Below are positions 3,271 through 4,743 of a DNA stretch of 5,297 bases, piece after piece. This DNA is from a bacterium (lineage in GTDB: Bacteria; DYJV01; JALVYZ01). The stretch lies in NCBI GenBank assembly GCA_027037705.1, contig JALVYZ010000022.1, forward strand, positions 1-5,297, given 5' to 3'. Below the pieces are notes generated by a model, which was not told the origin of the DNA, ran no database searches, and was given only the letters and a program-made list of their open reading frames with translations. The stretch's first letter is position 1. Every line of letters begins with the position of its first letter. Both the position numbers and the translations under genes were made by a program.

Positions 3271-3488
3271 AATTTTTATTGAAAAAAACAATTTTTGAAA
3301 AGGAAAAATTAATTATTGGAATTGGAGATACCACTATTAATTATTAATGAAAAATTTAAATTTATAAACTCAGATAGGCAATTAAAATTTTTTAAAGACA
3401 TTCCTGAAAGCCATCTTTAAAAGATAAAAAGATAATCAGATTAAAATTGAGAAAATAAAAAAATTTTATCAATCTGTCTAATTGTTAA
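3271..3488. other. AT-rich gap without a convincing gene
   Basis: I find no confident gene here on either strand. The longest item of note is a 34-codon frame from TTG 3316 to the TAA at 3418-3420 (LELEIPLLIINEKFKF and so on). It has only a distant AAAGGA as SD and no recognised motif, and it may be a gene remnant. A small perfect palindrome, ATCTTT-A-AAAGAT, lies at 3413-3425. The rest is A/T-rich, with stops in all + frames. Confidence 0.4.
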
Positions 3489-3530
3489 ACAAAATGATAT
3501 ACATTTTGTCAAATTATTTGACAAAATGAT
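3489..3530. repeat. Nested inverted and direct repeats upstream of the second ATPase gene
   Basis: A perfect odd palindrome of 27 bp spans 3502-3528. Its left arm is CATTTTGTCAAAT and its right arm is ATTTGACAAAATG, around one central T at 3515. The left arm also pairs with ACAAAATG at 3489-3496 across ATATA. The decamer ACAAAATGAT therefore occurs twice in the same direction (3489-3498 and 3521-3530), 32 bp or about three helix turns apart, with an inverted partial copy between. This looks like a set of operator half-sites for a dimeric or multimeric regulator, or a recognition site for the ATPase itself. It is not a typical terminator, as no T-run follows. Confidence 0.75.
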
Positions 3531-3544
3531 TTAATTGTGATAAT
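3518..3544 (+). promoter_or_regulatory. Candidate promoter for the second ATPase gene
   Basis: TTGACA at 3518-3523 is a perfect -35 box inside the right arm of the palindrome. After 15 bp comes GATAAT at 3539-3544, a 5/6 match to the -10 box, preceded by TGT at 3536-3538 (extended -10). The -10 lies within a further inverted repeat, TTTAATT (3530-3536) and AATTAAA (3542-3548). The predicted transcription start is near 3551, only 0-3 bases before ATG 3553, so the message may be leaderless. Overlap of the -35 with the palindrome suggests repression or autoregulation. The spacer is shorter than the ideal 17 bp. Confidence 0.5.
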
Positions 3545-3552
3545 TAAAAAAT

Positions 3553-4743
3553 ATGGATTTTAACAAAATATTAGAATTAAATGAATTAGCTAAATCTACA
3601 ATAAAAAAGTTTAATAAAAAAAGGTTTGCCTTTAACAATATTTTAGCTGAAAAAGGGAAACATTTTGTTGGAATAGTTGGTCCAAGAGGTGTTGGAAAGA
3701 CAGTTATATTAAAACAAATTTTAGCAGATATAGAAAATTCTTTCTATGTTTCAGCAGACACTATAGATGAAGATATTTTTGAGATTGCTAAAATTCTTAA
3801 AGAAAAATTTAAAATCAAATTATTATTAATAGATGAAATTCATTTTAAAGATGATTTTGAAATAGCTTTAAAAAAAATTTATGATTTTTTAAATTTAAAA
3901 GTAATATTTACAAGCTCTTGCTCATTATCCCTTTTTCAGTCAGCAGTTGATCTATCAAGGCGTGTAAAGCTTATAAAATTATATCCCTTTTCTTTAAGGG
4001 AGTATCTATATTTTAAAAAAGATTTACTTCTTAATAAGCTAACTTTTGAAAATATTATAAAAAGAAATAATCTTGAAAAATATCTTCTTTATGAATTTTT
4101 ATTTGATAATTATTTAAAAGGAGAATTATTTCCTTTTAGTCTTGATGAACCTGAGGTTATGGATATCTTAAAGAATATTCTAAATACGATAATTTTTAAA
4201 GATATCCCTTCGATTAGCAACTTAAAATATAAAGAACTTAATATAATTGAAAAAGTTATAAAATTTATAGGAAAATCGCCAGTTGATGGGATAAATTTTT
4301 CTTCAGTTGCCAAAAATTTAGGAATTACAAAATATAAAGCAGAACAATATATAAAACTACTTGAAAACTCTTTTATACTGAACATTGTATATCCAGCTGG
4401 CTCTAATGTTTTAAAAGAACCAAAAATTTTAATGAATTTACCCTTTAGATTGATTTTTAAAGATTTTAATGATTGTATTGGAGAATTGAGAGAAGATTTT
4501 TTTGTAGAAATATTAAAAATGCAAGATTATGAATTTTATTATCTAAAGACAAATAGAGGACAAAAAACTCCTGATTATATTGTTAAATTTAAAGATAATG
4601 ATGTTGTGTTTGAAATTGGAGGGCGAGGAAAGGGTAAAAGCCAATTTAAAGGTGTTAAGGTGGAAAATAAAATTATATTAACTCATCCAGGAATTGTTGA
4701 TAAAAATAAACTACCCCTGTTTATAATGGGATTTACTGTATAA
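3553..4743 (+). CDS. AAA ATPase with DUF4143-type C-terminus
   Basis: This 396-residue protein has the full length usual for the family. It carries Walker A G43-P-R-G-V-G-K49-T50 and Walker B L90-L-L-I-D94-E95. A sensor-like T120-S-S-C segment follows, then a possible arginine finger S135-R-R137 and the conserved L143-Y-P-F-S-L-R-E-Y. The DUF4143-like half has F215-K-D-I-P, a winged-helix segment at about 246-276 (INFSSVAKNLGITKYKAEQY) and P285-type LKEPKILM. The C-terminal nuclease-like pattern is P340-D341 then F353-E354-I-G356-G; the Lys of ExK is replaced by Gly, so nuclease activity is doubtful. It is cytosolic and its function is unknown. It is clearly diverged from the ATPase at the start of the window, so this is not a recent duplication. 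ATG 3553 has no SD and probably begins a near-leaderless message. The gene separates the two leucine-pathway genes. Confidence 0.9.
   Translation: MDFNKILELNELAKSTIKKFNKKRFAFNNILAEKGKHFVGIVGPRGVGKTVILKQILADIENSFYVSADTIDEDIFEIAKILKEKFKIKLLLIDEIHFKDDFEIALKKIYDFLNLKVIFTSSCSLSLFQSAVDLSRRVKLIKLYPFSLREYLYFKKDLLLNKLTFENIIKRNNLEKYLLYEFLFDNYLKGELFPFSLDEPEVMDILKNILNTIIFKDIPSISNLKYKELNIIEKVIKFIGKSPVDGINFSSVAKNLGITKYKAEQYIKLLENSFILNIVYPAGSNVLKEPKILMNLPFRLIFKDFNDCIGELREDFFVEILKMQDYEFYYLKTNRGQKTPDYIVKFKDNDVVFEIGGRGKGKSQFKGVKVENKIILTHPGIVDKNKLPLFIMGFTV

Follow-up and report, generated by a model that had tools for sequence, protein, structure and literature searches.

Palindromic sites paired at an exact 32-bp offset overlap the promoter of an AAA_14/DUF4143 ATPase gene and are private to that gene

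Results

A pair of palindromes upstream of an ATPase gene

In the 5,297-nucleotide stretch of bacterial DNA analysed here (the window), the gene for an AAA_14/DUF4143 ATPase is preceded by two 27-bp palindromic sites, and their pairing at an offset of exactly 32 bp is the conserved part of the design. The original prediction was of a single perfect 27-bp palindrome whose right arm holds the -35 box TTGACA. We saw that the palindrome is indeed perfect and that the hexamer lies where it was placed, but this is only half of the element, as a degenerate copy 32 bp upstream had been overlooked. The features of the region, all on the + strand, are as follows.

3470-3496, +: operator unit 1, degenerate 27-bp inverted repeat CAATCTGTCTAATTGTTAAACAAAATG (PWM score 27.6)
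3486-3491, +: second possible -35, TAAACA, within unit 1 and with 17 nt to TCAAAT; weak in the window
3497-3501, +: 5-bp linker between the units, ATATA (TATAT, ATATG, CATAT etc. in orthologues)
3502-3528, +: operator unit 2, perfect 27-bp palindrome CATTTTGTCAAAT-T-ATTTGACAAAATG, centre 3515 (direct reading)
3509-3514, +: second possible -10, TCAAAT, within unit 2 (left arm)
3518-3523, +: candidate -35 TTGACA, within unit 2, right arm (direct reading)
3536-3544, +: candidate extended -10 TGT-GATAAT, with a 15-nt spacer that is not optimal (direct reading)
3553-4743, +: AAA_14 + DUF4143 ATPase of 396 residues (Pfam, PADLOC, AF2 pLDDT 92.4)

Unit 1, listed as D4 by the repeat finder, is identical to unit 2 at 21 of 27 positions and keeps 9 of the 13 palindromic pairs. 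Taken alone, the palindrome is weak evidence, as its rarity is modest: arms of at least 13 bp without a mismatch appeared in 0.33% of dinucleotide-Markov windows of the same length (5/1500), which corresponds to about one such palindrome per 2-Mb genome by chance, and the window pair compared with the window's own shuffles gave p=0.02 only. A second inverted repeat had also been proposed around the -10; the TGT-GATAAT box is there, but the repeat is mostly A/T and does not score like an operator unit. The third-best site in the window scored -0.8 by PWM (37.1 and 27.6 for the two units), and a third operator unit at the -10 was rejected on this score.

Conservation of the sites and their spacing in orthologues

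The evidence that carries the pair comes from orthologues, for which we had 27 usable sequences (47-55% identity, 10 anonymous families); since the phyla of the window genome and of the nearest relative hold two genomes each, the set covers at least three phyla. All 27 have sites upstream, as the original prediction would have it, and in every one the two best sites within the upstream 300 bp are exactly 32 bp apart, as scored with a symmetrised site matrix trained without a spacing rule. The 32-bp offset occurred in 0 of 171 control windows taken at these loci, and a matrix trained with the tested family left out again gave 27/27 across the ten families. The third-best site in the orthologues is nearly always far lower in score.

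A search of the genome collection with the single window protein gave no match, and a profile search returned only the record of the G044 orthologue (Deltaproteobacteria MAG, nzgw173) plus distant relatives. This nearest relative in the first 60 genomes (55% identity) has TATACATTATGAAAAATAGTTTGACAAAATG at the equivalent place, and the DNA around this site otherwise aligns poorly with the window. Unit 2 at this locus (L072) ends within the ATPase start codon, such that operator and start overlap. The orthologue of G345 (L075 1501-2694) carries two in-frame stops but has retained the two operator units with their 32-bp offset; given stops beside an intact operator pair, its decay looks recent.

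Sites private to the gene

When we scanned 28 genomes allowing up to 3 mismatches, every strong match but one was directly upstream of the ATPase gene, and a control scan of the same 28 genomes with the reversed pattern found none. The pair is therefore a private operator and not a regulon, and the genome scans rule out the regulon of a host factor. The stray strong copy (L179, G465:C77 23289-23315) adjoins no recognisable ATPase ORF and may be a remnant. There was no conserved neighbouring gene or regulator at the orthologue loci, so the unit consists of the operators and the ATPase. Three features expected of an autoregulated gene were found: an operator private to the gene, a conserved operator overlapping the gene's promoter (27/27), and, by prediction, a DNA-binding domain in the product. 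Viral origin or viral decoys were also considered and rejected, as viral contigs held no relative of the protein and no exact operator.

Promoter layout and translation start

The 15-nt spacer between TTGACA and GATAAT in the window is short for sigma-70, and the window promoter is ambiguous, being either TTGACA-15-nt-GATAAT or the weak TAAACA-17-TCAAAT; neither conserved layout fits cleanly. Among the orthologues the layout is more regular. With the 32-bp period, a spacing of exactly 17 bp separates the unit-1 TTGACA (positions 17-22) from the downstream TnnAAT at unit-2 positions 8-13, and about half of the orthologues have a good sigma-70 promoter with the -35 TTGACA taken from unit 1 and the -10 from unit 2, e.g., TTGACA-17-TAAAAT in G044. 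In the orthologues with long leaders, the -10 is exactly 17 nt downstream of the unit-2 TTGACA in 8/9, with a mean of 4.3/6 -10 matches at 17 nt vs ~2 at most other spacings.

The start codon proved to be placed as predicted, with ATG 3553 following the -10 by 8 nt and no Shine-Dalgarno sequence, whereas one is present at three neighbouring genes. Leaderless initiation had been suggested on this basis. As a conserved feature this did not hold, because several orthologues have a Shine-Dalgarno sequence or leaders of tens of bases, which puts leaderless initiation outside the conserved design. In the window a leaderless start is conceivable, but transcription from the alternative promoter in unit 1 would leave a leader of ~30 nt.

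The ATPase and its predicted winged helix

Identification of the gene product as a DUF4143-type ATPase was borne out, both Pfam domains scoring above their gathering cut-offs: AAA_14 (PF13173) with an E-value of 2e-22 (79.9 bits, cut-off 27) and DUF4143 (PF13635) with an E-value of 2e-7 (31.1 bits, cut-off 28.1). The protein also matched the PADLOC PDC-S01 HMM (E-value 4.4e-24), as did all 47/47 members of alignment A4. The predicted parts of the protein that concern us here are the following.

4228-4437, +: predicted winged helix-turn-helix, residues 226-295 (AF2: H226-241, H249-256, H260-272, E276-279, E291-294)
4330-4368, +: predicted recognition helix, residues 260-272 (alignment and AF2)
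4477-4740, +: C-terminal PD-(D/E)XK-like domain with the altered motif TPDY...EIGGRGKG (AF2 of the domain alone, pLDDT 86.8)

The winged helix that the original prediction attributed to the family is confidently placed in the AF2 model of the window ATPase, with pLDDT exceeding 90 over most of 226-272 and dropping to 77 around 281-290. The predicted recognition helix opens with ITKYKAE, which is almost invariant in close orthologues. Structural matches to the C-terminal domain alone were nearly all PD-(D/E)XK nucleases, and these were modest (best Z 7.6, Foldseek E-value 0.007). The catalytic D...E-x-K of those enzymes is absent, the window protein having D341...E354-I-G-G with Gly at the Lys position in this class; this replacement makes cleavage activity doubtful in the class. 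By sequence there was no full-length homologue among solved structures. The nearest solved structures to the AF2 model were the archaeal ATPases 2qen (Z 16.0) and 2fna (Z 15.6), then CED-4 and plant NLR receptors, and Orc1/Cdc6 was also among the matches.

Paired palindromes in other AAA_14/DUF4143 subfamilies

Significant tandem palindromes with a period of 31-33 bp were found upstream of 34 of the 130 non-close members of the family, about a quarter only passing this generic pair test, compared to 4/169 control upstreams (Fisher p=4e-10); family members had been removed from the control upstreams by HMM before the final statistics. Canonical members alone gave 22/105 with a tandem palindrome pair (p=5e-7). 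The family-wide period peaks at 32 and 33, and while the palindrome sequences differ from subfamily to subfamily, the spacing is nearly constant. By aligning the winged helices we could distinguish six subfamilies, each with a distinct recognition helix, a distinct palindrome, and mostly a fixed period of 32 or 33 bp.

Helix type ITKYKAEQY: palindrome CATTTTGTnnAAT, period 32
Helix type DNKTV: palindrome TTGGAGTATACTCCAA, period 32 (3/3)
Helix type GKEKL: palindrome AGTTCTAnTATAGAACT, period 32 (4/6 members)
Helix type DRVTM: palindrome TGTAAnnTnnnTTTACA, period 33
Helix type GDERTL: palindrome TAGTATTGCAATACTA, period 33 (3/4)
Helix type SKEYVY: palindrome AGTAAACTnnACTTnACT, period 33 (7/7, a count that takes in three members earlier not counted significant, which helped train the matrix)

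A further search for SKEYVY proteins in new genomes returned members already known. Paralogues within one genome have unrelated operators, with a mean half-site similarity of 0.42 that equals the baseline, and 40%-identical proteins in different genomes share operators (half-site similarity 0.59). The operator sequence thus tracks the predicted recognition helix, not the host. That kin ATPases have different palindromes at near-equal spacing suggests that each controls its own gene.

Among named plasmids, the pair is seen in Runella slithyformis pRUNSL05 (period 33), Segatella copri (33), and Persicobacter pPP5 (32), along with a weaker case of period 34 in Aliarcobacter pACRY43158. No operator pair was visible upstream of the ATPase at L085 or in Bacteroides finegoldii (L265). 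Other arrangements were also seen: L080 has at least 3 to 4 TGTAAnnTnnnTTTACA sites upstream of its ATPase, and L083 has three CGTTCT...GAACG-like sites with a 40-bp period. Five genomes (G044, G265, G200, G256, and G039) have 18 to 34 DUF4143 domain matches each, which suggests large expansions.

The window itself holds a second DUF4143 ATPase of the canonical class (1-864, Pfam E-value 1.7e-53), the 5' end of which is off the contig, with its upstream region falling outside the window. Between the two ATPase genes, a DUF6036/AbiEii-like nucleotidyltransferase ORF (1703-2188) overlaps a 59-residue ORF (2172-2351), and the ORFs in 1703-2351 might be a small two-gene unit of nucleotidyltransferase type.

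Discussion

We think it likely that the pair is a two-site operator to which the ATPase itself binds by way of its winged helix, giving negative autoregulation. The original prediction of self-regulation is favoured by the predicted winged helix, the gene-private site, and the 27/27 orthologues. That the gene's own product binds, that it binds as dimers, and that control is negative and depends on ATP are inferences. One ATPase dimer would sit on each 27-bp inverted repeat, and the 32-bp period, corresponding to three turns of DNA, would set both dimers on the same face, where they could act together. The bound ATPase would cover its own promoter and repress its own gene; as the -35 hexamer is inside the operator arms, bound protein would block RNA polymerase. 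Repression would probably be modulated by the nucleotide or activation state of the ATPase. Activation rather than repression is an alternative sign of control.

A serious rival, though in our estimate an unlikely one, is that the palindrome pair serves as a platform for loading or assembly, either origin- or iteron-like or the cut or recombination site of the nuclease-like domain, with the promoter overlap being secondary; such a docking or loading role would fit repression as a by-product. The fold resembles that of the Orc1/Cdc6 initiators, which bind inverted repeats, the C-terminal domain is nuclease-like, and the AAA_14/DUF4143 family occurs on plasmids. However, the overlap of the sites with -35/-10 hexamers is fixed in position, the start codon follows shortly after the sites, Gly replaces the catalytic Lys (EIGG) in this class, and the gene is found in many genomes without conserved neighbours. 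Binding by a host transcription factor in trans would account for tandem palindromes over a promoter, which are typical of ordinary repressors, but paralogues in the same genome have different operators, orthologues across phyla share them, the genomes have almost no other sites, and no regulator is conserved nearby. The combination of helix-operator pairing, privacy, and cross-phylum conservation makes a host factor hard to sustain, and we regard it as improbable.

We give still less weight to control of translation or transcription termination by RNA hairpins in the 5' leader. Either unit could form a hairpin, and unit 2 was flagged by a terminator-like scan. Against this, the arms hold -35 hexamers, so that transcripts start downstream of or within them, covariation from one unit to the other equals that inside a single unit, which fits a shared DNA specificity, and there was no Rfam match; the hexamers and the between-unit covariation together make RNA hairpins unlikely. 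Finally, a perfect arm of 13 bp is expected about once in a genome of similar size, and the window palindrome seen by itself could be a product of chance in AT-rich DNA, but conservation in 27/27 orthologues with exact spacing rules this out, leaving chance a negligible prospect.

Beyond autoregulation of the window gene, we raise more speculatively that much of AAA_14/DUF4143 (PDC-S01) has a lineage-private, helix-matched palindrome pair about three turns apart, with the promoter serving as a docking site for the ATPase and activation freeing the gene. The ATPase fold would here be immune-receptor-like, and the activation cue might be ATP, DNA ends, or phage infection.

Since all of the aligned members match PDC-S01, which is very common and unvalidated, the operators open an uncharacterised family directly to experiment. 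With a predicted cognate site for each subfamily, binding, ATP dependence, specificity swaps, and phage induction become assayable on short DNA, and the helix-operator pairs lend themselves to working out a winged-helix recognition code. If these proteins are true self-regulating DNA binders, the defence label itself becomes testable.

Comparison with known systems

PDC-S01, whose HMMs are matched by the window protein and the aligned members, is reported to rank fourth in frequency among prokaryotic defence candidates, at ~39,000 occurrences, and to lack a validated function (PMC12988326). It is a single-gene phage-defence candidate defined by protein HMMs only, with mechanism and defence unvalidated (PMC12988326). 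The literature that we searched, mostly open journals with few preprints, held no description of an operator for DUF4143, COG1373, or PDC-S01; DUF4143 is named there in one paper and COG1373 in seven, once in each. The window protein shares both domains with the AAA_14 + DUF4143 ATPases of COG1373, but its DUF4143 part is divergent, with EIGGK for the usual E-x-K.

By structural alignment, the AAA core and winged helix of the window ATPase align with SSO1545 (2fna), PABY2304 (2qen), and STAND ATPases such as CED-4 over ~250 residues (Z 15-16), though at only 14-18% identity, and the range aligned with 2qen and 2fna excludes the C-terminal nuclease-like domain. We know of no promoter operator for SSO1545, PABY2304, or the STAND ATPases. 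Orc1/Cdc6 (2qby, a DNA complex) also joins an AAA module to a winged helix that binds inverted repeats; these initiators bind origin repeats, whereas the window-type sites coincide with part of a promoter and differ in sequence from subfamily to subfamily.

In regulation, the likeness is to LexA/TetR-type autorepressors and toxin-antitoxin operators, in which palindromes lie over the gene's own -35/-10. The window system differs from the LexA/TetR type in its presumed repressor, an ATPase that carries a nuclease-like domain, and in having two sites with a fixed three-turn period family-wide. Autoregulation through palindromic operators is old, and what appears to be new is that, across a family of ATPases of this fold, the operators come as pairs matched to the recognition helix and set at a fixed three-turn period.
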